A stretch of 64,000 nt of DNA from Candidatus Zixiibacteriota bacterium (GTDB lineage: Bacteria > Zixibacteria > MSB-5A5 > GN15 > FEB-12), in assembly GCA_034003725.1 (NCBI GenBank), contig JAVEYB010000003.1:237486-301485 (forward strand). Direction: 5' to 3'. This document shows, piece after piece, positions 1 through 57,909 of this stretch. Every line of letters starts with the position of its first letter. The first letter of the stretch is position 1. A program made the translations under genes and the position numbers. Under the pieces are notes generated by a model. The model had not been told where the DNA came from. It saw only the letters and a list, made by a program, of their open reading frames with translations, and ran no database searches.

Positions 1-1059
1 ATCACGCACCGGGAGATCACGCCGGATATGATCGGCGCGGATTGTGCGCCTGTCGAAGCGGCCTACGCGGCCGGACAGCATATCGTCGCCGTCAATCTCC
101 CGCATTTCGCCGAATACCTGTCGTTTTTTACCGGACCCGGGCGGAGCTTCGCCGACGAAATATCGGACCGACTTAAGGTGATTGCCTGCCTCGAAAAGCC
201 CAATATGACCTCGTCGGAAGCCCTGTCGCCGGTGATCGACAGCGAAGGATGGGCAAATATCCGTTTCCTGCTGGGCTCTGCCGATGACGATGCCCAGATC
301 ATATTCTGGGGCCCCGAAGCGGACATCGCAACCGCGCTCCTTACGATCGAAGAGCGATGTCAGCTCGCCTATAAGGGCGTCCCGAACGAAACGCGCAAGT
401 CGCTGCCTGACGGGACGACGGTCTTCGAACGCGTGCTCCCCGGGCCGGACCGGATGTATCCCGATACTGACTCAGCCCCGATTCCGATTACCGGCGAACA
501 GATCGAAACTATTCGCGCGGGCTTGGCGGTCGACGTCTCAATGCGTGCGGCCCAGCTTCACCGATGGAAAGTCCCCGCACACATGCACCCGTTCCTTCTC
601 CGGTACAATCTCGTGCCCGTTATCGAGTCGATTGTCGAGAACCACGCGTTTGCACCGCGGATGGTCGCATGCCTGATGGGTCAGGTGCTCAGAAACATCC
701 AGGGAGCATGTGTGGGCCGCCCGGTGCCCGACTACCAGACGCTCGGTACCCTGTTTGCGGAGACAGCACGGAGAAACCTCGTACCCGAGATACTGAAAGA
801 CCTGATACCGCTGTGGTACCGCTACCCCGGCGATTCCTTCGACTCCCTGCTCGAGCAGGTGAGTTACCGGCAGGCGACTTCGCGCGACGCAGCCGATGCG
901 ATACCTTCGCTTCGTGCCGAGTTTGAGGCGCACCGACCCGAGCGTCAGCCCGACGCCGAAATAGACTGGATCGTCGGCCGGCTTCGCCCGATTGCGCTGG
1001 GTAATGTGCCGCTTGCTGAGGTCCGTCGCATGGTGGCCGAGGAGGTGTCCCGTGGCTGA
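1..1059 (+). CDS. gatE: Glu-tRNA(Gln) amidotransferase subunit E (GatE), 3' part
   Basis: The reading frame is open from the first base, so the gene begins outside the window. The visible 352 residues match the central and C-terminal part of GatE. They include the family signature VPNETRKSLPDGTT followed by MYPDTDSAPIPI, part of the AspRS-like insertion and its return to the cradle. The C-terminal helical and YqeY-like tail that binds tRNA(Gln) follows. GatE activates Glu-tRNA(Gln), and GatD supplies ammonia. The stop codon overlaps the start of gatD, so the two subunits are translationally coupled. GatE is distinguished from bacterial GatB by the inserted domain and by the GatD partner. The family assignment is firm; what is odd is finding it beside clearly bacterial genes. 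Confidence 0.93.
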   Translation: MTHREITPDMIGADCAPVEAAYAAGQHIVAVNLPHFAEYLSFFTGPGRSFADEISDRLKVIACLEKPNMTSSEALSPVIDSEGWANIRFLLGSADDDAQIIFWGPEADIATALLTIEERCQLAYKGVPNETRKSLPDGTTVFERVLPGPDRMYPDTDSAPIPITGEQIETIRAGLAVDVSMRAAQLHRWKVPAHMHPFLLRYNLVPVIESIVENHAFAPRMVACLMGQVLRNIQGACVGRPVPDYQTLGTLFAETARRNLVPEILKDLIPLWYRYPGDSFDSLLEQVSYRQATSRDAADAIPSLRAEFEAHRPERQPDAEIDWIVGRLRPIALGNVPLAEVRRMVAEEVSRG

Positions 1060-2437
1060 GAAAGCGATGGAGGGCTACAAGGGCGAGGCGCTGGCGACGC
1101 TGGAGAAGTTCCACTCGCGGGTATGGAGCGAGTCGCTGGTCAGTACGACGCGCGGCGACTTCACCGGCATTATTCTGCCGCGGTCGGAAAACGACGACGA
1201 CCGTCACATCGTCTTGAAACTGGTGACCGGTTACAACATCGGTATCGCCGTCGATACGATCACCAACATCACCGAGCAGGGATACAAGCAGGCCCACTAC
1301 AAAATCCCCGAGAAGCAGTTCCCGGTAACCGAGGGTCTGCCGCATGTCAAGCTGCTCGGTACCGGAGGCACGATCGCGTCGCGACTCGATTATCGCACCG
1401 GTGCCGTAATCCCGGCCTTCACACCGGGGGAATTGTACGGCGCCGTCCCGGAACTTGCCGACATCTGCAACCTGACGACCGATAAGCTGTTCGCCGTATT
1501 CAGCGAGAATATGGGTCCCAGCCAGTACAAAGAACTCGCGATCGCGATCGGCCGCGAGATTGAAAACGGGATCGACGGAATCGTCATCGGGCACGGTACC
1601 GACACCATGCATCACACGGCGTCGGCGCTGGCCTTCATGGTCCAGGATCCGCCCGTCCCGATCGTGCTGGTCGGCTCACAGCGTTCGTCGGACAGGCCGT
1701 CATCCGATGCGGCGCTGAATCTCATTCATGCGACCAAAACCGCGGCGGAATCGGACATCGCCGAAGTCATGGTCTGCATGTTCGGGCCGACATCGGACAA
1801 GTACGGCCTGCTGCATCCCGGCACGCGTGTTCGCAAAATGCACTCTTCGTATCGCTCGACCTTTCGGACGATCGGCGATATTCCCATAGCGACCGTCGAC
1901 CGAAACAAAATCACACCGCTGAAGGACACCTACAAACGACGTCGTCGGGACCGGCACGTGAAGATCACGCCGGTGTTTGAAGAGCGGGTGGCGATGGTCT
2001 ACTATTACCCGAACATGCACCGCGATATCATCGATTCGCTTGTCGACAACGGATACAAGGGGATCGTGATTGCAGGAACCGGGCTCGGGCATATCAACAA
2101 GCCGGTCTATCCGGCGATCGAGCGTGCCGTCGCAAACGGAGTCGCGATCTACATGACCGTGCAGACTCTCTGGGGATACGTGCACATGTTCGTCTACGAC
2201 ACCGGTCGCGATCTCATGGCCAAGGGGATCATTCCGGCCGAGAACATGCTGCCGGAGGTCGCCTATATCAAGCTGGGCTGGGCATTCGGGCAAACCAGCG
2301 ATCTCGATGAAGTCCGCGAGATTATGCTCACGCCCATCGCCGGCGAAATCACCGAACGCGAACCATACAACGGCTATGTCGTGCTGCAGGGCGGGCTCCC
2401 CGAAGTGGAGAAGTTCCTGCATTCGATTCAGATGTAG
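1052..2437 (+). CDS. gatD: Glu-tRNA(Gln) amidotransferase subunit D (GatD)
   Basis: GatD is the asparaginase-like subunit that releases ammonia from glutamine for GatE. I chose the GTG at 1052 (461 aa) because GGAGGTG lies five bases upstream and it overlaps the gatE stop by eight bases; ATG at 1067 is the alternative. A small N-terminal beta-barrel covers about residues 1-90. The type I asparaginase fold follows: GTGGTIAS (about 103-110, nucleophile Thr), HGTDTMHHTA (181-190, Thr-Asp pair) and a downstream Lys in TRVRKMH. Length agrees with archaeal GatD (about 435 aa). A plain asparaginase is unlikely because of the N-terminal barrel and the coupling to gatE. Confidence 0.93.
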   Translation: MAEKAMEGYKGEALATLEKFHSRVWSESLVSTTRGDFTGIILPRSENDDDRHIVLKLVTGYNIGIAVDTITNITEQGYKQAHYKIPEKQFPVTEGLPHVKLLGTGGTIASRLDYRTGAVIPAFTPGELYGAVPELADICNLTTDKLFAVFSENMGPSQYKELAIAIGREIENGIDGIVIGHGTDTMHHTASALAFMVQDPPVPIVLVGSQRSSDRPSSDAALNLIHATKTAAESDIAEVMVCMFGPTSDKYGLLHPGTRVRKMHSSYRSTFRTIGDIPIATVDRNKITPLKDTYKRRRRDRHVKITPVFEERVAMVYYYPNMHRDIIDSLVDNGYKGIVIAGTGLGHINKPVYPAIERAVANGVAIYMTVQTLWGYVHMFVYDTGRDLMAKGIIPAENMLPEVAYIKLGWAFGQTSDLDEVREIMLTPIAGEITEREPYNGYVVLQGGLPEVEKFLHSIQM

Positions 2438-2485: not shown

Positions 2486-3442
2486 ATGTACGTAGTCACC
2501 GGCGGCGCCGGATTCATCGGCAGCCATATCGTCAAGGAACTGAATAACCGGGGCATAACGAATATCCTCGTGGTCGATGACATGACCGACGGCGACAAGC
2601 ATGTCAATCTTGCCGATTGCACGATCACGGATTACATGGATACCGATGAATTTCTGGAAGAAGTCAGTGCCGGGCTGTTTGAGGCTCCGTTGACGGCGAT
2701 CCTGCACCAGGGGGCGTGCACTGATACGATGAACAACGACGGCCGCTTCATGATGGCCAACAATTTCACCTACTCCAAGTATCTGCTCGAATATGCGCTG
2801 GCCAACGAAATCCCGTTTGTGTACGCCTCGAGCGCCGCAACCTACGGCGCGCAGCGATCGTTTGCCGAATCGCCCGCAAACGAGCGACCGATCAACGTCT
2901 ACGGGTATTCGAAGCTGGCCTTCGATCAATACGTTCGCACCCGCCTGCCGCGCGCGGAAAGCACGGTCGTCGGACTGCGCTACTTCAACGTCTACGGACC
3001 GCGCGAAACCCGCAAGGGGCGCATGGCGTCGATGGTCTACCAGTTGTACCGCCAGCTGAAAACCGAGGGAATCTGCCGGTTGTTCGAGGGCACCGATGGT
3101 TACGGCGACGGCGAACAGCGCCGCGATTTCGTGTCTGTAGGTGACGTGGTGAACGTCAATCTGCATTTTGCGGCGACCCGCAAGGTCAAAGGGATCGTCA
3201 ATGTCGGCACGGGCAGGAGCCGGAGTTTTAACGACGTGGCAACGACCCTGATCGCGCTGCTTGGCTCCGGATCGATCTCATACGTTCCGTTCAACAAATC
3301 GCTCGCCGGCAAGTACCAGAGCTTCACCGAGGCCGATCTCACCAATCTTCGCAAGATCGGCTACGAAGGTGAGTTCACGGAGCTGGAAGACGGTGTCCGG
3401 CAGGCGGTCGAAGGATATGCCGCTTTCGAGATGAACTCCTGA
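2486..3442 (+). CDS. hldD: ADP-L-glycero-D-manno-heptose 6-epimerase
   Basis: This extended SDR epimerase makes ADP-L-glycero-D-manno-heptose, the heptose donor for the lipopolysaccharide inner core, so it implies an LPS outer membrane. The Rossmann motif GGAGFIGSH is at the N terminus. HQGACTDTMNNDG is highly characteristic of HldD, the catalytic YGYSK lies near residue 140, and RYFNVYGPRE and RRDFVSVGDV follow. The 318 aa length is normal (E. coli 310). AGGGGAT lies five bases before the ATG. No other heptose genes are adjacent. It is downstream of gatD by 48 bp and could share its transcript. Confidence 0.93.
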   Translation: MYVVTGGAGFIGSHIVKELNNRGITNILVVDDMTDGDKHVNLADCTITDYMDTDEFLEEVSAGLFEAPLTAILHQGACTDTMNNDGRFMMANNFTYSKYLLEYALANEIPFVYASSAATYGAQRSFAESPANERPINVYGYSKLAFDQYVRTRLPRAESTVVGLRYFNVYGPRETRKGRMASMVYQLYRQLKTEGICRLFEGTDGYGDGEQRRDFVSVGDVVNVNLHFAATRKVKGIVNVGTGRSRSFNDVATTLIALLGSGSISYVPFNKSLAGKYQSFTEADLTNLRKIGYEGEFTELEDGVRQAVEGYAAFEMNS

Positions 3443-3506: not shown

Positions 3507-4772
3507 TCACGATCGGGACACCGGCATGGTCATACACCGTGCGCCGCCCCGCCCCCGAGACAACTCAGCGCCCGAGAGCGTGACCAGGGTGCGATCCACA
3601 GTCGCCGGATCAGTCTTGAGAAACTGCGACGGTGAGAGCACGTTGTAGCCGTTCTTCTGAAATGCACTGATCGTCTGCGTGTTCCGTTCGTAGATGAACG
3701 CCACCCGCGGCCGCGCCGCAAACAAATTGGCGCCGTCCGTCCATTGCTCCCGGGTCTGGTAGTGGGGGATATCTCCTCCGCACGGAACCCGGTTGGGGAA
3801 CGCATATCCGAGCCGCTCCAGGGCCGAAAACAGGCCGCGGGGCGCGGTCTGATCCACTACCGTCAACTCACCGTCCGATAATTCGTAGGTAATGCAATTC
3901 AGGGGAGATGCTCCCGTCCCCTCGCTGAAAAACGGTGGATAGTACACGCAGTCATCGCGGCCGATTATCGTGAAGACGGTATCGAGATGCATGGTTGCCC
4001 GGTCGCGCGGCATCAACACTTTTATTAACCTTTTCGCCATACCGTTCGTCAGCAGGCGGCGCGCCAGCAATTGTATCGCGCTGTCGGAGGTTCGTTCACT
4101 GGACCCGACGAGAATGGTATCGGAATCCAGCACGATCACGTCTCCTCCCTCCAAATGAACGTGACCTGCGAACGCATGCTCGGTGGCGTCATCGAGCACA
4201 TCGACAATCTGTATATCCGCAAACATGGGGTGATTGCGGAAAATGTACCGTGCCAACAGTCCCTCACGTCGACGTATACCCTTGGCGGGGTGGCTCAGGA
4301 CTACGGTATCGCCGAAGAATATCCCCAGGTCGCGGGTAAACATCAGGTTCGGAATCGGCGGGAAAAACACCCGGTACCCCTGGTGGGATCGATCACCCGG
4401 TCGAAAGGCGCCGGCCACCAGCAGCAAGGCCAGCTCGCGCGGCGCAAGGTTCTCCGACAACAGGTAATCATGCGTGCCGATTCCCACGCCCTCCAGCGCC
4501 GATACGGCGCCGACCACGTCCGAGCAGACCTCCCGATCGGAAAGTATCTCTGCAAGCAACTCGGTGAACTCGACCACACCGCCCGGACCGGCGGCGTGAC
4601 GGAGGCAGTCGGAAAACTCACGGTGGTCGCTGGCCGCCCGCTGGGTAAACAGGACATCCTCGATAAGGTACTTCTCCGGCATGTCGTGCTCAACTGTCAC
4701 CAGATTCCACTCGTAACCGGGCTCATGAATCACGACTCGTTTCAGCGGCTCGTATTCCGTATGAAGCGGCAC
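3507..4772 (-). CDS. arcA: arginine deiminase
   Basis: Arginine deiminase hydrolyses L-arginine to citrulline and ammonia in the cytoplasm. The guanidino-group-modifying fold is clear: FTRD, HLEGGDVIVL, HLDTVFTII, then the C-terminal GGARCMTMP carrying the catalytic Cys. CGGDIPHYQTREQWTDGAN is also typical. The GTG start at 4772 gives 421 aa, the usual length, with AAGGAG five bases upstream; the frame stays open further upstream but the extra residues have no family match. No ornithine transcarbamylase or carbamate kinase gene is nearby, so the rest of the ADI pathway, if present, lies elsewhere. It is convergent with hldD. Confidence 0.93.
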   Translation of the reverse strand: MPLHTEYEPLKRVVIHEPGYEWNLVTVEHDMPEKYLIEDVLFTQRAASDHREFSDCLRHAAGPGGVVEFTELLAEILSDREVCSDVVGAVSALEGVGIGTHDYLLSENLAPRELALLLVAGAFRPGDRSHQGYRVFFPPIPNLMFTRDLGIFFGDTVVLSHPAKGIRRREGLLARYIFRNHPMFADIQIVDVLDDATEHAFAGHVHLEGGDVIVLDSDTILVGSSERTSDSAIQLLARRLLTNGMAKRLIKVLMPRDRATMHLDTVFTIIGRDDCVYYPPFFSEGTGASPLNCITYELSDGELTVVDQTAPRGLFSALERLGYAFPNRVPCGGDIPHYQTREQWTDGANLFAARPRVAFIYERNTQTISAFQKNGYNVLSPSQFLKTDPATVDRTLVTLSGAELSRGRGGARCMTMPVSRS

Positions 4773-5504
4773 GGATACTCCTTGCTTCAGGTTAATCGGG
4801 GTTCGGTGCGGGCCACCGACCGATGGTCCGCGGACGTGCGCTAAGGTAGACAAACGGGTGGTCGCAATCAACTCTATTTCCGGTGCCATGCGCCGGACGA
4901 CGGCGGTCGAGGCTGCGGCCACCGGAAGTCCGTCGGAGGGGCTGTCCAACCTCAACGGTACCACCGTCTTATGATGACATTGCACATCCGATTCCCCCGG
5001 CGAGTCTATCTACTGATAATGGGCAGGGGGAAACCGGTTGCGCACGGGTCGCGAGGTGGTATATTACGCGCTCGTGCGAAAAAGGTCGCTCCGCCGGACG
5101 TCCGACGGCAGCCGCCACGGCCCAAACCGATTGAGGCAAAATGGCTTTGAGCGGAGAAATCACGGCGAAGGCACTTGACACTCCCGGTCCAATGATGCTC
5201 TTTAGGGGCTGTGATTCTCCCGACCCGGTTCGGGACTGGTTCGATATGACATAAATGACGGCACACGCATGGGCCGTCTTACGTGTATTTTGGTTGGGAT
5301 GTGTTCTCAGTGTCAGTGCCGATGTGGCTACCGTCAGACCGTGGTCCGGTCAGACGAGCGTTCCGGAACGGACCAATGGTTCCTGCGGGGGAGGACCCGG
5401 CCCCCGGGCGATACTGATGCCCGGGCGGCAGTTCCCTGTCCAGAATACCTGCCCGGATATTGATGCCAATGTGTGATAAAAGTGGAATGTGAGGAACGAA
5501 CACC
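4773..5504. other. 732-bp intergenic region, no gene seen
   Basis: This gap separates divergent arcA and the DUF4397 gene. Short open frames here have no recognisable products or ribosome-binding sites. One plus-strand promoter-like pair is visible, TTGCGC at 5038 and TATATT at 5060 (16-base spacer), but it would give a leader of more than 400 nt. A 7-bp inverted repeat, CCCGGGC/GCCCGGG, lies at 5403-5425 without a U-run. None of these is strong enough for a separate call. Confidence 0.4.
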
Positions 5505-8500
5505 ATGCAAAAGACCTTGCTCTCGAGTCTGTTTGTATTGATGGCACTCGTCGCCGCCTTGTTCTTGGCATGCGATGATGATGAGCCGCCGGTTGGATCG
5601 GGGAGCCCCCGGGCGAATGTCCGCGTGATCCACGCGAGCTTCGACGCGCCTGATGTCGACATCCGCGTCGACGGCGCCGTGGCCGTCGCCGGGCTCGGGT
5701 ATGGCGCCACTTCCGGCTATGCCCAGGTTGATCCCGGTGCGCGCAATGTCACCGTGACGCCCTCCGGCGCGACAACACCGGTCGTGCTGGATCTCGATGT
5801 GAACGTTACCGTCGACAAGTTCTACACCGTAGTGGCGCTCGACGAAATGAGTACCATTGACGCCGTCTTCCAGGAAGACCTCCGTTCCTCCAATCCCAGC
5901 AAGGCCAAGGTACGCTTCATTCACGCCGCTCCCGACGCGCCTGCTGTCGACATCAAGGTCAACAGCGGTACCGGAGCCACCGTGTTCTCGAACCGCGCCT
6001 TCAAGTCCGTTTCGGACTACATCGAAGTTGACGCCGGCGCGTATACGTTTGCCGTCACGGCCACCGGCTCGACCGCCGAAGAAGCCTTGTACAAGCCGAT
6101 CGGACTGCAAAACGGCAAGGTCTACACCATTGTCGCCCTTGGCACGCTCGACAAGACCGACGCGTACCCGTTCCGGGTTCGCGTGTTCACCGATAACGAC
6201 GATGGTGCGGCGTTCGCCGACCTGCTCGATGCCGATCTGCCGGACGCCACCGTTCGCGTTCTCCACACCAGCTACGATGGCGGGCCGGTCGACGTGCTGG
6301 TCGATGATGCCGTCGCGTTTGCTTCGCTGACCTACGGTGAAGCCGCCGCGTATTCCGTCGTAACGGCGGGAACCCGCAATATCAAAGTGACGCCCGCCGG
6401 CGTATCCTCAACCGTCCTCGTGGAAACGGACGACGAATTTCGCTCGGGCAATGAATACACGCTTGTAGCCGTGGATGAAGCCGCGGACCTCGATTTGCTC
6501 ATTGGCGGCGACAATCGGACTCCCAACCCCGACCAGGCCAAGGTGCGATTTATCCACGCGTCGCCCGATGCGCCCCGCGTCGATGTCCGTCTGAACAGCG
6601 GTTTCGGACCGAAGCAGTTCCCCAACGTGGCATTCAGGACTATCGGCGCCTATTCGTCCGTCGATGCCGGTGACTACGTGTTCGTTCTGACCATGGCCGA
6701 CTCGACGTGGGAACTGATTGCGTACGAGCCGATCGCCCTCGCGAACGGCCAGGTCTACACGCTGGTCGCTCTGGGCACGCTCGACGACGGTGACGCGTAT
6801 CCGTTCACGCTGCGGCTGTTCTCCGATAACGATGACGGTACGTCGTATACCGACCTGACCGTCGAGCCGCGCACGAAGGCCGACTTCCGCGTCATGCACC
6901 TGAGCTACGACGCGCCGGCCGTCAACGTCCTCGTCGATGGATATGCGGCGATACCGAGTCTGGCTTTCAAGGGCTCGTCGAAGTACACGGAATTGAACGC
7001 CGGGACCCGCAATATTCAGGTTCAGTCCGCCGCTGGTGGGCCATCTGTGATCGATGCCGATCTTGATTTCGTGGCCGGCGCGGAGTACACGATCTTCGCC
7101 GTCGACCGTCTGACCACGATTGCGGCGCTTTTTGAAGAAGACGACCGCGCGCCGGTCGCCGACCAGGCTAAGGTCCGGTTCGTGCATGCGGTGCATGATG
7201 CCCCGGCGGTAGACATCAAGCTCGAGACCGGTACCGGCGCCGCCGTATTCAGCAATCTTTCCTTCAAGGATATCACCGATTATCAGATAATCGACGATAC
7301 CCAGTATCGGTTCGTCGTGACCGCGGCCGGGGATACGAACGAAGTCCTCGTGTTTAACCCGGTTGCGTTGTCGCCCAACACCACGTACACCATTGTCGCG
7401 CACGGTACGTTCAGTCTTACGGACACCGTCCAGTTTGGTGTGCGCGTATACACCGACAACGGAAACGGAAACCAGTTTGTTGACCTTACGATCGCCAAAT
7501 CGCCGGTTCGACTGATCCACGCCAGCTACGACGGGCCGGTGCTCGACGTGCTCTCCGACGGCGTGCGGCAGATACAGGCCGTGCCGTACCGCGGCACCGC
7601 CGGGTATGCCCAGTTGAACGCGGGCACGCGGAACATCCAGGTCGTCCCGGCCAACCAGACCTCACCGGTGCTGATCGAAGAGACCCGGCTGCTCGACGAA
7701 GACGTGTACTACACGGCCTTTGCGTTTGACGAATTGGCGTCCATCGAAGGCGTATTTGTCGTTGATGATCGGGTCTTGAGCGGGACACAGGCCAAAGTCC
7801 GTTTTGTCCACGCAGCCCCCGATGCCGGCCCCGTTGACATCAAGGTCAATTCGGGCTCTGGCGCCGCCGTCTTCGCGGCCGCCAACTACAAGGACATTTC
7901 GTCCTACGTGAGTGTTGATCCCGGTGCATACGTCTTCGCCGTTACCGCGGCGGGCAATACCGACGAGATCGTCGTCTTCGATCCGTTCGCACTCCAGACC
8001 AACAGTCTCTACACGATCGTCGCGTTCGGCACACTTGACACGCTCGATCAATATCCGTTCGGTGTTCGAGTGTTCCGTGACAACGGCGACGGCAACATCG
8101 TGAACGACCTGACGATCAACGAGCCGTCCATTCGCGTTATCCACGCCAGTTACGACGCCCCGGCTGTCGAGGTACGCGTGGATGACGTCCTCAAGTGGGA
8201 TGATACGATCCAGTATGCAGGCACCAAAGGATACAGCGAAGTTGATCCGGGTGTCCGCAATATCAAGGTCGGCCCGGTGGGCGGTGCGGCCGTTATCGAC
8301 ATCGACCTCAACCTCGCGTTCAACACTGACTACACGATCTTTGCGATGGATCAGCTCGCGCTGATCGATCCGGTGTACGATATAGACGATCGCACGCCGA
8401 ATCCTTCGGCGCCGAAGGCCCGGTTCGTGCATGCTTCACCCGATGCCCCGGCGGTCGACGTCAAGACCGTGTCGGGAACGGGGGCGACTCTGTTCGGTAA

Positions 8501-10013
8501 CGTGTCCTTCAAGGGCATTACACCGTACCAAACCCTGTCCGCTGGCGCCACCCAGCTCGTGATAACGCCGGCCGGCAGCTCCAGCGAGGTGCGAGTGTAC
8601 CTGCCGTTCACCTTTGCCAACAATACGGTCTACACGATCATGGCGTTCGGTACGCTCGCCGACGGCGACGGGTATCCGTTCCGTGTCCGCATCTTTACGG
8701 ACAACGGCGCCGGCACAGGTAGTTCGGAACTTACCATCGCGGCCTCCAAGCTGCGCGTGATCCACGCCGGTGTCGACGGCTATCCGATTGAAACCCTCGT
8801 GGGAGACTCCATCAAGCATACGAACGTCGCGTATGAAGGAGCCGGCGGGTATCTCGACGTCGGACCCGGTAATCGTAATATCAAGGTCCGTCAGTCCGGC
8901 TTTGCCACGCCGCCGGTGATCGATACAACGGTCGAGCTCGGCTTCCGCACCGACTACACGCTGCTTGTCCTCGATTCGCTGAGCCGGATGAGCGCGGTCG
9001 TTGCTTCGGATGCCCGGGCCACGATCACTGACTCGGTCAAGCTCCGCTTCACACACGCGGTCCTCGACATGCCGGCGGTCGATATCCGGCGCGACAATCC
9101 GACCGGGACGCTCTTGTTCGGCGACTACGCCTTCGGGGAAGTATCGCCTTACCTGGTGGTGAGCAACGGGAGCTACGTCTTCTCGGTTGTTGAAGCGGGT
9201 ACGACGAACGAAGTGGCCCGGTTTGACGCCACCACACTCAACACCTCGTCGTCCTACACGCTCATAGCTCTGGGGACGGCCAATCAGGCCGACGCCAGTC
9301 CGTTCACGGTTCGCCTCTTCACGGATAACGGTCCCGGCAACCAGTCGACCGCGTTGACCGCCAAGACCGGTAAGGTCCGCGCGATTCATCTCAGTCAGGA
9401 TTCTCCTGCCGTGGACTTCACGCTCGACGGTGTCTCGCAGGCGACCAATATCGACTTCCGCACGCCGACCGCTTATGTGAACGCCACTCCGGGTACGCGC
9501 GCCCTGGCATTGCTGGAGACCGGCACGGCCAACGTCGTGGTGGATACTAGCGTCATAGCCGCGCCTGACGCGAGCTACACGCTGTGGGCCTTTGACTCAA
9601 CCGGAACGGCCGTCGCGGGAAGAATCAGCACCGACGACCGGGCGGTGGTCACCAATCCGAAGGTGCGTTTTGTCAACGCGGTCTCTGACGCGCCGGCACT
9701 TACGCTCCAGAACTTTACCTTCGGGTTCCCGCTGCCGATGAACAGCAACGTGAGCTTCAAGACGGTGTCGACGTACACGTCGACCCTCACCGCAAGTCCC
9801 ACCTTCGTATTCCAGGTGGCCGACGCCGGTACGCTCGCTGTCGTCGTGCTGTTCCAGCCGGTGAATATCACCGGCAGCACCGTCTACACCATGGTGCTGA
9901 CGGGTACACTCGACACCGGCGACGCCTATCCGCTGCAGGGTCGCCTGTACATCGATAATGGTACCGGCAGTCAGGTGGTGGACCTGGTGCCGACCGTCAA
10001 GTCGGGAGAATAG
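5505..10013 (+). CDS. giant DUF4397 tandem-repeat lipoprotein
   Basis: This 1502-aa protein begins with a lipoprotein signal peptide (lipobox ending LFLAC, then DDDEPP), so it is probably anchored in a membrane and faces the periplasm or the surface. The rest is 14 beta-rich units of about 100 residues, each opening with a VRVIHASxDAPxVDI-type motif. Two versions alternate seven times. Version A has GYxxVxPGxRNIKV and FYTVVALD. Version B has AKVRFIHAxPDAP, VYTIVALGTL and FRVRVFTDN. The period per pair is about 208 residues. These are DUF4397 repeats of unknown function; adhesion or polymer binding is only a guess. A perfect terminator follows 58 bases after the stop. Confidence 0.9.
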   Translation: MQKTLLSSLFVLMALVAALFLACDDDEPPVGSGSPRANVRVIHASFDAPDVDIRVDGAVAVAGLGYGATSGYAQVDPGARNVTVTPSGATTPVVLDLDVNVTVDKFYTVVALDEMSTIDAVFQEDLRSSNPSKAKVRFIHAAPDAPAVDIKVNSGTGATVFSNRAFKSVSDYIEVDAGAYTFAVTATGSTAEEALYKPIGLQNGKVYTIVALGTLDKTDAYPFRVRVFTDNDDGAAFADLLDADLPDATVRVLHTSYDGGPVDVLVDDAVAFASLTYGEAAAYSVVTAGTRNIKVTPAGVSSTVLVETDDEFRSGNEYTLVAVDEAADLDLLIGGDNRTPNPDQAKVRFIHASPDAPRVDVRLNSGFGPKQFPNVAFRTIGAYSSVDAGDYVFVLTMADSTWELIAYEPIALANGQVYTLVALGTLDDGDAYPFTLRLFSDNDDGTSYTDLTVEPRTKADFRVMHLSYDAPAVNVLVDGYAAIPSLAFKGSSKYTELNAGTRNIQVQSAAGGPSVIDADLDFVAGAEYTIFAVDRLTTIAALFEEDDRAPVADQAKVRFVHAVHDAPAVDIKLETGTGAAVFSNLSFKDITDYQIIDDTQYRFVVTAAGDTNEVLVFNPVALSPNTTYTIVAHGTFSLTDTVQFGVRVYTDNGNGNQFVDLTIAKSPVRLIHASYDGPVLDVLSDGVRQIQAVPYRGTAGYAQLNAGTRNIQVVPANQTSPVLIEETRLLDEDVYYTAFAFDELASIEGVFVVDDRVLSGTQAKVRFVHAAPDAGPVDIKVNSGSGAAVFAAANYKDISSYVSVDPGAYVFAVTAAGNTDEIVVFDPFALQTNSLYTIVAFGTLDTLDQYPFGVRVFRDNGDGNIVNDLTINEPSIRVIHASYDAPAVEVRVDDVLKWDDTIQYAGTKGYSEVDPGVRNIKVGPVGGAAVIDIDLNLAFNTDYTIFAMDQLALIDPVYDIDDRTPNPSAPKARFVHASPDAPAVDVKTVSGTGATLFGNVSFKGITPYQTLSAGATQLVITPAGSSSEVRVYLPFTFANNTVYTIMAFGTLADGDGYPFRVRIFTDNGAGTGSSELTIAASKLRVIHAGVDGYPIETLVGDSIKHTNVAYEGAGGYLDVGPGNRNIKVRQSGFATPPVIDTTVELGFRTDYTLLVLDSLSRMSAVVASDARATITDSVKLRFTHAVLDMPAVDIRRDNPTGTLLFGDYAFGEVSPYLVVSNGSYVFSVVEAGTTNEVARFDATTLNTSSSYTLIALGTANQADASPFTVRLFTDNGPGNQSTALTAKTGKVRAIHLSQDSPAVDFTLDGVSQATNIDFRTPTAYVNATPGTRALALLETGTANVVVDTSVIAAPDASYTLWAFDSTGTAVAGRISTDDRAVVTNPKVRFVNAVSDAPALTLQNFTFGFPLPMNSNVSFKTVSTYTSTLTASPTFVFQVADAGTLAVVVLFQPVNITGSTVYTMVLTGTLDTGDAYPLQGRLYIDNGTGSQVVDLVPTVKSGE

Positions 10014-19935: not shown

Positions 19936-20142
19936 CAGCACGGGCCCCGGGACCGCCGGGCACCACGACCGCGCAATCGCGGTTACAGGCAGTAGGCGCC
20001 TTCGAAAATCTCCGACCGGTGATCGAACTACGGCAGCCCGGTCGGACATCAGTGTCGATAGTGTGCCGACCATGGCTGACTGACGATACATGGACAAAGC
20101 CAATCCCTTTTAGCGCCGGACGATTTCCGGTGATTCGTGTGT

Positions 20143-22680
20143 ATGGACCAGACGCGTTGGAAACAGATACAGTCGCTGTTCGAACAGGCGCTCGACCTCC
20201 CTCCGGATGACCGCGAACACTTCGTCCGCATCCACTCCGGCGGCGATCGCAACCTGTGCGACGAGGTCCTCAAGATGCTGCGGGCCGATCAGCGGGCGCA
20301 CAGCCTGTTCGGCGGCGGGGCCGCCGACGCCCTCGGTCTGCCGAAACAGCTCTCTTTGGCCGGACGAAGAATCGGCGCGTTTGAACTCGTACGCGAAATC
20401 GGCGCCGGCGGTATGGGTGTCGTCTATCTTGCCCGACGAGTCGACGGCCAGTTTGAACAGCATGTCGCCGTCAAGCTCATCAAGCGCGGGATGGACACCG
20501 AGCAGATCCTCAAACGCTTCCAGATCGAGCGACAGATTCTCGCGCGCCTCGAACACCCGAATATCGCGCGGCTGCTCGATGGCGGCGTCACCGAGGAGGG
20601 TCTGCCGTACTTCACGATGGAGTACGTCGAAGGTGAGCCGATCGACCGATACTGCGACACGCACCGCCTGACAGTAGAACAGCGTCTGGTCCTGTTCCTG
20701 ACCGCCTGCGATGCCGTTGCCTACGCCCAGCGGTGCCTTGTCGTGCACCGCGATCTGAAACCGGCCAATATCGTAGTGACGGCGGCCGGGCAAGTCAAAT
20801 TGCTCGATTTCGGCATCGCCAGGGTACTCAGCGATGATCCGCAATTTGCCGTCCACGAACCGCTCACCCGCACCGGCTTCCGCGTCATGACCCCGGGATA
20901 TGCATCCCCCGAACAGGTGAGGGGAGAGCCTGTAACGACGGCGAGCGACGTCTACTCGCTTGGTGTCGTTCTATATGAGCTGCTCACCGGCCGAAAACCC
21001 TACGAGGTCACAGGCGAATCGATCAAGCAGATCGAAGAAGCCATCGTGTCAACCGATCCCAAAAAGCCAAGCACGGCCGTGGTCACCTCCCCAACATCCG
21101 TTAAAACCCGCTCCCCTGAAACCAGTGATCCCAGGGCGCGAAGTGAGGCGCGCGGCTGCAGCCCCGAGCGGCTTCGGCGACGACTATCCGGCGATCTGGA
21201 CAACATCTGTCTGATGGCGCTCAGAAAGGACCCCGCCCGACGCTACGAGTCCGCTGAGCAGTTTCGCGAAGATATCCGCCGGCACCTCGCCGGGCTGCCG
21301 GTTCACGCCCGACCGGAGACCCTCAGCTATACGCTGTCGAAATTCATCCAGAGACACCGCGTCGCCGTTTCCGTCGCGGCGTTTGTCGTTCTGCTGGTCA
21401 CGGCACTAGTTGCGTTTTACACCGTGAGACTGTCGGAAGAACGAGACCGGGCTCGCGCCGAAGCGCGCAAGGCCGCCGAAGTAGCCTCGTTTCTGACTGA
21501 CCTCTTCGAGATTGCCGACCCGATCAACGCCAGCGGCGAGACCATCACCGCCCGCGAACTGCTCGATCGCGGCGGCGAGCGCATTGATGTCGAGTTGGCC
21601 GGCCAGCCTGATGTGCAGGCGAATCTTCTGCACGTGATAGGCAAGGTGTACTACAACCTCGGGTTGTACGACGCTGCCGCCGACGCCCAGCGGCGAGCGT
21701 ACGAACTGCAATCTGCGCTGTACGGCGAACGCAGCGAAGAAGTCGGGCTGACCTTGATGGAACTCGCCGCGCTCGCCGATATCGACGGTCACTACGACTC
21801 CGCTATCGCCTGCAATCGACGGGCTGTGGACATCTTCACTTCTCAGCGGGGAGAAAGAGACACACTGACCGCAACGGCCATCAACGATCTCGCGATCGGC
21901 CTGCGCCACAACGGTGAACTCGATGAGTCGGAACGATATTACCGCCGGGCGTTGCAGCTGCGCAAAGAACTGCTCGGCAGTCGTCACGCCGATGTCGCCC
22001 ATACTCTGAATCACCTCGGAAGACTCCTCCAGTCTCAGGGAAGACTTTCCGAAGCCGAACAGTTGTTTCGCGAGGGTCTGGAGATCCGGCGCGAGTACTT
22101 CGGAACCGATAACTATGCCGACGTTGCGGCCAGCTATGCGGCGCTCGCGGGCTGTCTGGCCGCTCAGAAGCGATACGAAGAATCCGTCGAGATGTACGCT
22201 CGGTCACGCGAGTCATTCATGGCCGTTTTCGGCGAGGATCATCCCTACACGGTAGGTGTCATCGCCAGCCGCGGGCGAACGCTGATGGAGCTGGGACGGT
22301 TCCGCGAAGCCGGGCAGTCGATCCGCCGCGCAATCGATATCCAAAGCCGAATCCTGCCCGACGATCATCCTCACCGGAGCAACACACTGTATTATCTCGG
22401 TGAGTTGTACCTTCGGCAGGGGTTCGCCGATTCCGCCGAAACGATCTTTCGTCGAACGCTGGCCATTCGCGAGCAATCCCTCCCACCGGACAACTGGCGT
22501 ATCGCGCAGGTCCGGAGCAGCCTCGGAGAGTGCCTGCTCGATCAGGGACGGATCACCGAAGCCTCGCCGCTGATTCGCGAAAGCTACGACCTGCTGCTCG
22601 AGCAATTGGGAGACAGCAGCCTCACTACCCAACTCGCCGGCGAAAGACTCCTGCGGCTTCAGCAAGCCCTTCACCCGTAA
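20143..22680 (+). CDS. membrane serine/threonine protein kinase with TPR sensor domain
   Basis: The 845-aa protein has a Hanks-type kinase domain from about residue 75 to 380. It shows GAGGMGVVY (ATP loop), VAVKLIK (catalytic Lys), HRDLKPAN (catalytic loop), DFG and YASPEQ. An N-terminal leader of about 70 residues matches the short helical region seen in Planctomycete- and Acidobacteria-type kinases. One membrane helix follows near 405-430 (VSVAAFVVLLVTALVAFYTV). The C-terminal 400 residues are TPRs of the kinesin-light-chain type (AAADAQRRAYELQ, ESERYYRRALQLR, EAEQLFREGLEIR) outside the membrane. ATG at 20143 is preferred over GTG at 20137. Substrates are unknown. Confidence 0.92.
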   Translation: MDQTRWKQIQSLFEQALDLPPDDREHFVRIHSGGDRNLCDEVLKMLRADQRAHSLFGGGAADALGLPKQLSLAGRRIGAFELVREIGAGGMGVVYLARRVDGQFEQHVAVKLIKRGMDTEQILKRFQIERQILARLEHPNIARLLDGGVTEEGLPYFTMEYVEGEPIDRYCDTHRLTVEQRLVLFLTACDAVAYAQRCLVVHRDLKPANIVVTAAGQVKLLDFGIARVLSDDPQFAVHEPLTRTGFRVMTPGYASPEQVRGEPVTTASDVYSLGVVLYELLTGRKPYEVTGESIKQIEEAIVSTDPKKPSTAVVTSPTSVKTRSPETSDPRARSEARGCSPERLRRRLSGDLDNICLMALRKDPARRYESAEQFREDIRRHLAGLPVHARPETLSYTLSKFIQRHRVAVSVAAFVVLLVTALVAFYTVRLSEERDRARAEARKAAEVASFLTDLFEIADPINASGETITARELLDRGGERIDVELAGQPDVQANLLHVIGKVYYNLGLYDAAADAQRRAYELQSALYGERSEEVGLTLMELAALADIDGHYDSAIACNRRAVDIFTSQRGERDTLTATAINDLAIGLRHNGELDESERYYRRALQLRKELLGSRHADVAHTLNHLGRLLQSQGRLSEAEQLFREGLEIRREYFGTDNYADVAASYAALAGCLAAQKRYEESVEMYARSRESFMAVFGEDHPYTVGVIASRGRTLMELGRFREAGQSIRRAIDIQSRILPDDHPHRSNTLYYLGELYLRQGFADSAETIFRRTLAIREQSLPPDNWRIAQVRSSLGECLLDQGRITEASPLIRESYDLLLEQLGDSSLTTQLAGERLLRLQQALHP

Positions 22681-56985: not shown

Positions 56986-57120
56986 TCGCAGGTGTGCAGC
57001 AACCCCGCCGAAAGGCGGGGAATAGACAGTCCCGGCCGACTCGGTCGGTGGTCCCGCTCGCTCGGGTCCGATCGGGGACGACGCCGGGGTGAAGGTAAAC
57101 CGAACTTTTCAGGGGATTCA
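56986..57120 (+). promoter_or_regulatory. candidate structured rpsB leader
   Basis: The 135-base gap between rpsI and rpsB is very GC-rich and foldable. A perfect 7-bp stem CCCCGCC/GGCGGGG with a GAAA tetraloop occupies 57003-57020, and further complementary blocks (CCGGCCGAC/GTCGGTGG, CCCGCTCGCTCGGG) follow. S2 autoregulates rpsB-tsf in E. coli through its leader, so a similar role is possible. Comparative data are needed. Confidence 0.35.
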
Positions 57121-57909
57121 ATGCTCTCTCCAAAAGTCAAAGAATTGCTCGAGGCCGGGGTCCATTTCGGCCACCAGACGCGCCGGTGGAACCCCAAGAT
57201 GAAGCCGTTCATTTTTGCGGCTCGAAATGGAATCTACATCATCGATCTGCAGAAGACGGTCAACGCGCTCGAGCAGGCCAAACGCAAGATGGCCGAAGTG
57301 GTCCGGTCGGGTCGTCCGATTCTTTTCGTGGGAACCAAAAAGCAGGCCAAGGAAGTCATTCATGAACAGGCCCCGCGATGCGGCGGTTATCATGTCACCG
57401 AACGCTGGCTTGGCGGCATGCTGACCAATTTCAACACCATCCGGAATTCCATCAAGAAGCTCAAAGATATCGAGCGGATGCGCGAGGACGGGACGATCAA
57501 CAAATTCACCAAGAAAGAACGCGCCCGTTTCGAGAAGGAAGAAGAAAAGCTCAACAAGGTTCTGTCCGGTATTAAAGACATGAACCAGTTGCCCGGCCTT
57601 GTGGTGCTGGTAGACGCCCGCAAGGAGAAGATCGCGGTCGCAGAGGCCAACAATCTGGGCATCCCCATCATCGGAATCATCGACACCAACGCCGATCCGG
57701 ACCCGATCGATTTTCCGATCGCCGGCAACGATGACGCCATCAAGTCCATTCGCGTGCTGATGCGGGACCTGGTGGACTCGGCGGTCGAAGCGCAGAGCGG
57801 ACTGACCCGCGATATGATCGAGCCGGCTGCGACTGAGCCGGTCGACGAGGATGTGTATGATGAGACGCCGAACAATGACGACAATGACGACAGCGAAGTT
57901 CAGGAGTGA
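57121..57909 (+). CDS. rpsB: 30S ribosomal protein S2
   Basis: ATG at 57121 with AGGGGATTCA before it gives 262 aa: [78 protein letters not shown] and [24 protein letters not shown] (quoted here in pieces of the conserved core). The C-terminal 25 residues are strongly acidic ([20 protein letters not shown]), an extension beyond the conserved fold. An earlier in-frame GTG is not used on this reading. Confidence 0.97.

Follow-up and report, generated by a model that had tools for sequence, protein, structure and literature searches.

Coupled gatE and gatD genes, encoding the two subunits of the archaeal-type amidotransferase GatDE, were identified in a genome of Candidatus Zixiibacteriota that also encodes glutaminyl-tRNA synthetase (GlnRS), GatA, and GatB. 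Judged from the sequences, this GatDE is probably a working Glu-tRNA(Gln) amidotransferase that operates beside GlnRS as a corrective or parallel route, a reading to which we assign a probability of roughly 0.55. The first-pass annotation had pointed out that GatDE in a bacterium runs contrary to the textbook view, and this was borne out: true GatDE genes lie on a bacterial contig. The window, which denotes the whole analysed stretch of 64,000 nucleotides (G000:C3:237486-301485), has its left edge inside gatE and contains the following features.

Window 1..1059, + strand: gatE, the 3' 352 codons (whole gene 666 codons including the GTG; TIGR00134)
Window 1052..2437, + strand: gatD, 461 amino acids, GTG start (TIGR02153; GatD_N plus type I asparaginase fold)
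Window 2486..3442, + strand: hldD-type ADP-glyceromanno-heptose 6-epimerase (TIGR02197, 390.8 bits), a bacterial neighbour given for context only
Window 56992..57909, + strand: rpsB, bacterial 30S ribosomal protein S2 (rpsB_bact TIGR01011, 328.5 bits), given for context only

The whole gatE open frame was obtained from the same contig (L036:6545-8542), where it starts 941 nt 5' of the window, and its stop overlaps the gatD start by 8 nt, as in coupled genes. GatD scored 511.8 bits against the NCBIfam model TIGR02153 (cut-off 324). The 352-codon piece of GatE alone gave 82 bits against TIGR00134, which is under the cut-off; the whole protein gave 377.1 bits (cut-off 319.55), and against a second model, NF003107, it stayed just under the cut-off (438.1 vs 456). 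These curated-model scores, the kept motifs, and the 8-nt overlap confirmed the coupled pair proposed from the letters alone, and the motif NETRKSLPDGTT quoted at that time was found in the sequence. GatD consists of the Pfam domains PF18195, PF00710, and PF17763. Its active-site motifs TGGT at 104, HGTDT at 181, and RKMHSS at 261 align with the archaeal GatD structures 1zq1_A and 2d6f_A, and contain the residues that we take to be T101, T177, D178, and K254 in the M. thermautotrophicus numbering. These active-site residues are kept in the aligned sequences.

The GatE blocks GLEIHQQL, IEEDS, DRLGMPLIE, and REDVNVSV were aligned to 2d6f and 1zq1, and the catalytic blocks were largely invariant among 21 GatE sequences of the phylum and likewise among 30 from several phyla. 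The TIGR00134 match to the window GatE spans only model positions 4-505 of 622, and a Pfam search detected no GatB_Yqey domain in this protein. The C-terminal third of the window GatE is, by sequence comparison, far from archaeal GatE. A fold was predicted for the GatE of locus L059, which is 74% identical to the window GatE, with a mean pLDDT of 79.1 and a pTM of 0.71, low-confidence stretches being located at 67-123 and elsewhere. The best structural match to this model was 2d6f_D, the tRNA-Gln-bound GatE (Z 26.7, 456 residues, rmsd 8.3, 30% identity), followed by 1zq1_C (Z 24.4) and then by GatB chains. Residues 310-439 of the model matched AspRS (1c0a, Z 11.2), corresponding to the AspRS-like insertion, and the model has a helical region towards its C-terminus.

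The contig measures 310 kb and belongs to a genome of 99.54% completeness and 0.36% contamination. Since its rpsB encodes a bacterial S2 protein, the contig is placed in Bacteria; pilQ lies on the same contig (284.5 bits). The bacterial neighbours noted at the outset were thus verified for hldD, rpsB, and pilQ, which together with the genome quality makes a misassembly or binning error very unlikely. Contamination or misassembly as the source of gatED was rejected on the basis of the 310-kb contig, the bacterial neighbours, the occurrence of GatD or GatE in 84 of the 132 phylum genomes, and the presence of gatED on contigs of 3.7-3.9 Mb (G303, G465, and G295).

A search of the window genome for gatA, gatB, and glnS found all three. 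GlnRS scored 759 bits, and GatA and GatB are encoded near glnA, with gatA on another contig (C12) apart from gatED. Glutamine is probably made in this organism, because glnA adjoins gatA. It had been suggested that GatDE is used either alone or beside GatCAB; GatA and GatB are indeed present, but with GlnRS encoded as well GatDE is a third route, and across bacteria GlnRS is the partner that usually accompanies it. In the phylum, GlnRS was detected in 76 of the 84 GatDE genomes (absent in 8) versus 22 of the 48 without GatDE, where GatDE presence means a GatD (E ≤ 1e-60) or GatE match in hand-compiled lists, fragments included, and GlnRS absence means no match better than approximately 1e-30. 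A GatE fragment of G024 that scores only 3e-20 beside a clear GatD was counted as present, and G005, with a 41-residue GlnRS piece at a contig edge, was counted as lacking GlnRS. For the 78 high-quality genomes (90% completeness, 5% contamination), the corresponding values were 53/56 with GatDE and 10/22 without, which ruled out GatDE as a general replacement for GlnRS. GatB was unrelated to GatDE in the same set (28/56 with vs 13/22 without); GatDE and GlnRS without GatB were found in 27 high-quality genomes, and GatB alone, the classic bacterial route, in 11. The phylum genomes are kin to each other, so that Fisher values for the GatDE-GlnRS association are overstated, and the association could come from shared ancestry; that the two coexist does not depend on any such statistic. 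An independent-pairs test on a GluRS tree of 32 rows, whose genomes were chosen to include the exceptions, gave only 5 pairs, too few for power. Outside this count, GlnRS was sought in each of 40 GatE genomes found through loci on named contigs, a subset of the best 80 of at least 586 stretches; it was above the cut-off in 37, present as a contig-edge piece in 1, and not found in 2. At least 2 of these 40 (G132 and G140) share match coordinates with G062 and G130, and are hence not independent of the phylum set.

GatE was above the cut-off in 69 and GatD in 78 of the 132 phylum genomes. In a second phylum, Bacteroidota, GatE was above the cut-off in 30 of 395 genomes, sampled evenly from the phylum to which a Bacteroidales MAG belongs, and none of 10 bacterial control genomes contained GatE above the cut-off. 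For 29 of those 30 the locus was fetched, and gatD was found in 28 of the 29, always following gatE on the same strand and close to it. An adjoining gatD was not found in 10 of a set of 31 loci examined (L006-L010, L012, L015, L018, L020, and L035). When contigs of named genomes were scanned by means of an alignment, at least 586 stretches were confirmed, the best 80 of which include Zixibacteria, Bacteroidota, Aminicenantes, Cloacimonadota, and the cultured Clostridium tagluense A121, with single Bipolaricaulota and Bacteriovoracaceae MAGs. The nearest relative among the matches listed was 74% identical and came from a candidate division GN15 bacterium. With these many bacterial relatives in public genomes, GatDE is not a peculiarity of one bacterial lineage. 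As separate observations, a group II intron piece is located 3' of gatE in a Cloacimonadota MAG (L122:4283-4398), and a gatE-like stretch occurs on the Natrinema thermotolerans plasmid CP031304.1 (L312), for which the PLSDB table lists no gene at that place. This L312 match covers only query residues 37-350, and may represent a broken copy.

The GatE trees placed Zixibacteria sequences in several deep groups, and one group was mainly of Bacteroidota. The window GatE fell in a long-branched group (SH-aLRT support 100%) with members from Zixibacteria, Bacteroidota, Cloacimonadota, Aminicenantes, Clostridium, and Bdellovibrionota, a range that points to spread between phyla. Bacterial GatE was well separated from the two usable archaeal sequences, the Natrinema fragment having been dropped from most trees; G127 was dropped from two trees and GatB from another. 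A GatB-rooted tree had a very long root branch and gave no settled order of the archaeal and bacterial groups.

On these grounds the following mechanism can be drawn. GlnRS would charge tRNA-Gln directly, with GatA and GatB also there, and a GluRS with incomplete rejection of tRNA-Gln would make some Glu-tRNA(Gln). GatD, as suggested by its conserved catalytic residues, would free ammonia from an amide donor, and GatE, as suggested by its fold and conserved blocks, would phosphorylate the tRNA-borne glutamate of Glu-tRNA(Gln) and amidate it to Gln-tRNA(Gln). GatDE would in this way convert the Glu-tRNA(Gln) formed on a bacterial-type tRNA-Gln, supplementing rather than replacing GlnRS. We further propose, tentatively, that bacterial GatDE may be a dedicated partner of GlnRS, so that direct charging and tRNA-bound repair meet on one bacterial tRNA-Gln. 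If true, this would break the archaeal-only rule as well as the rule of mutual exclusion between GatDE and GlnRS, and the window genome would be a case with three glutamine routes, namely GlnRS, GatCAB (of which GatA and GatB were seen), and GatDE.

GlnRS adjoins gatED in divergent orientation in G129 and G130 (where the HMM matches lie 1003 and 724 nt apart, respectively) and in a Bipolaricaulota-labelled MAG (L086), and in G185 of the second phylum (L340) it is convergent with gatED with 9 nt between the open frames. By set of loci examined, GlnRS was near gatE in 2 of 81 loci (L078, which is G130, and L086) and in 1 of 29 second-phylum loci. GluRS is located 1.6 kb from gatE in G115 and 3.0 kb in G116, and a tRNA-Gln (L105:3893-3967) ends approximately 45 nt 5' of gatE in a Bacteriovoracaceae-labelled MAG. 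The linked loci are few, yet they name the expected partners GlnRS, GluRS, and tRNA-Gln. Other recurring neighbours were LptA/OstA, MlaD, NUDIX, Amidase_3, and FtsX, which have no obvious link. An Rfam search detected no T-box or riboswitch in 14 of the 81 gatE loci, and returned only a tRNA and the group II intron piece. As an aside, G115 (L252) has two GluRS genes, one of which is that lying 1.6 kb from gatE.

The linkage of gatED to GlnRS in three lineages is not predicted of a decaying remnant, which bears on the view that GatDE is a redundant survivor from before the acquisition of GlnRS, still working and doing little. This view would account for the mosaic presence within families f1, f5, f15, f16, and f19, which hold genomes with and without GatDE, and for the 10 of 78 high-quality phylum genomes that have GlnRS without GatDE; the recurrence of GatDE together with GlnRS in several phyla and the invariance of the active-site blocks over wide divergence speak against it, and we consider it unlikely.

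The tRNA-Gln genes were searched for by using a covariance model constructed from 4 tRNA-Gln sequences, which gave candidates in every genome of the phylum. The best candidate was read in 86 of the 132 genomes and was tRNA-Gln(UUG) in all of them. The U1-A72 pair was found in 84 of the 86, including the window genome and 58 of the 60 that have GatDE, and A1-U72, which is the archaeal state, was found only in G003 (L310) and G004 (L297). These two are related and carry GatDE, GlnRS, and GatB; G001 and G002 of the same family, without GatDE, have U1-A72. A further candidate read in G120 was tRNA-Cys, and no tRNA-Gln was recovered from that genome. Pattern searches for tRNA-Gln were abandoned, as two gave wholly or mostly chance matches and a third matched 6 of the 132 genomes. 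Archaeal GatDE is described, in passages of PMC9499178, as reading the D-loop and A1:U72 of tRNA-Gln. The U1-A72 pair in 84 of the 86 genomes therefore means that a bacterial GatDE with tRNA-Gln as its substrate would read this tRNA otherwise.

The lack of A1:U72 in the tRNA-Gln of the window genome, the diverged C-terminal third in the window GatE group, and the direct GlnRS route already present would also fit a GatDE that has taken a new substrate, such as another glutamyl-tRNA or a glutamyl carrier, in place of Glu-tRNA(Gln). This appears quite unlikely in light of the translation genes linked to gatED, which are those of tRNA-Gln, GlnRS, and GluRS (the other neighbours being envelope or NUDIX genes), and of the L059 model, whose fold is nearest to the tRNA-Gln-bound GatE. 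Against the main reading, a GatDE acting on Glu-tRNA(Gln) beside GlnRS, stand the U1-A72 pair, the diverged C-terminal third of the window GatE, and the GluRS sequences. Loss of the Arg equivalent to R358 of T. thermophilus GluRS is, as we assume, a mark of a non-discriminating enzyme. The equivalent residue was Arg in 33 of 33 aligned rows, those of genomes without GlnRS included, so that this position gave no sign of a non-discriminating GluRS and does not separate genomes with GlnRS from those without.

GatDE without GlnRS was found among the high-quality genomes in G119, G120, and G127. G127 (100% complete) has GatDE and GatB, and G120 (94% complete) has GatD and GatE with neither GatB nor GlnRS found, making it a possible GatDE-only bacterium. 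That GatDE is the main glutamine route and GlnRS is idle or specialised, for example under scarce glutamine with asparagine as the amide donor, would suit these two genomes and the asparaginase-type amidase fold of GatD, and is very unlikely against a GlnRS that is present in 53 of 56 high-quality GatDE genomes and that in G130 is of full length and carries each of its three domains, a window genome whose glnA adjoins gatA, and the absences in G120 that rest on a 94% complete genome.

The bacterial set shares with the archaeal GatDE of Pyrococcus abyssi (1zq1) and Methanothermobacter thermautotrophicus (2d6f) both subunits, the GatD_N and asparaginase fold, the catalytic residues, and, on the bacterial side from the L059 model, the GatE cradle with the AspRS-like insertion. 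It differs in occurring in bacteria beside GlnRS and, in the window genome, GatA and GatB, in the U1-A72 tRNA-Gln of its carriers, and in the diverged C-terminal third of the window GatE. With bacterial GatCAB it has in common the chemistry and the catalytic domain PF02934 shared by GatB and GatE, whereas GatE has the AspRS-like insertion and works with an asparaginase-type GatD instead of the amidase GatA. GatCAB is commonly seen as an asparagine route in Bdellovibrio, Deinococcus, and Thermus. These genera, which have GlnRS and GatCAB according to PMC4206432, resemble the present case in that each pairs direct charging with an amidotransferase. GatDE is described as a Glu-AdT for glutamine (passages of PMC9499178), and GatDE together with GlnRS is hence without a ready asparagine explanation.

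In passages of recent papers, GatDE is stated to be exclusive to archaea (PMC8762117, 2022), to exist now only in archaea (PMC9499178, 2022), or to occur only in archaea (PMC8007984, 2021), and GlnRS is held to be missing from archaea because their tRNA-Gln has unusual features that evolved together with GatDE (PMC8762117 and PMC9499178). No report of bacterial GatDE was found in the available text of the literature searched, which misses most subscription papers, and database annotations of such proteins as GatD or GatE may exist without a paper, via the NCBI family models. Reviews treat GatDE as an archaeal signature. The bacterial carriers, among them the cultured and hence experimentally accessible Clostridium tagluense, widen the range of organisms from which the entry of glutamine into the genetic code can be traced. 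Furthermore, bacteria that have GatDE and GlnRS, often with GatCAB, together with a bacterial tRNA-Gln make the idea of tRNA-Gln/GatDE co-evolution testable.

Three other genes of the window were noted. An arginine-deiminase-like protein is encoded on the - strand (window 3507-4985); it scored well below the curated cut-offs (249.1 vs 414 and 231.3 vs 489.1), and is possibly another guanidino-group enzyme. A 1502-residue protein composed of DUF4397 repeats (12 stretches, 693.7 bits) is encoded on the + strand (window 5505-10013), and a protein kinase domain fused to tetratricopeptide repeats is encoded further on, also on the + strand (window 20137-22680).
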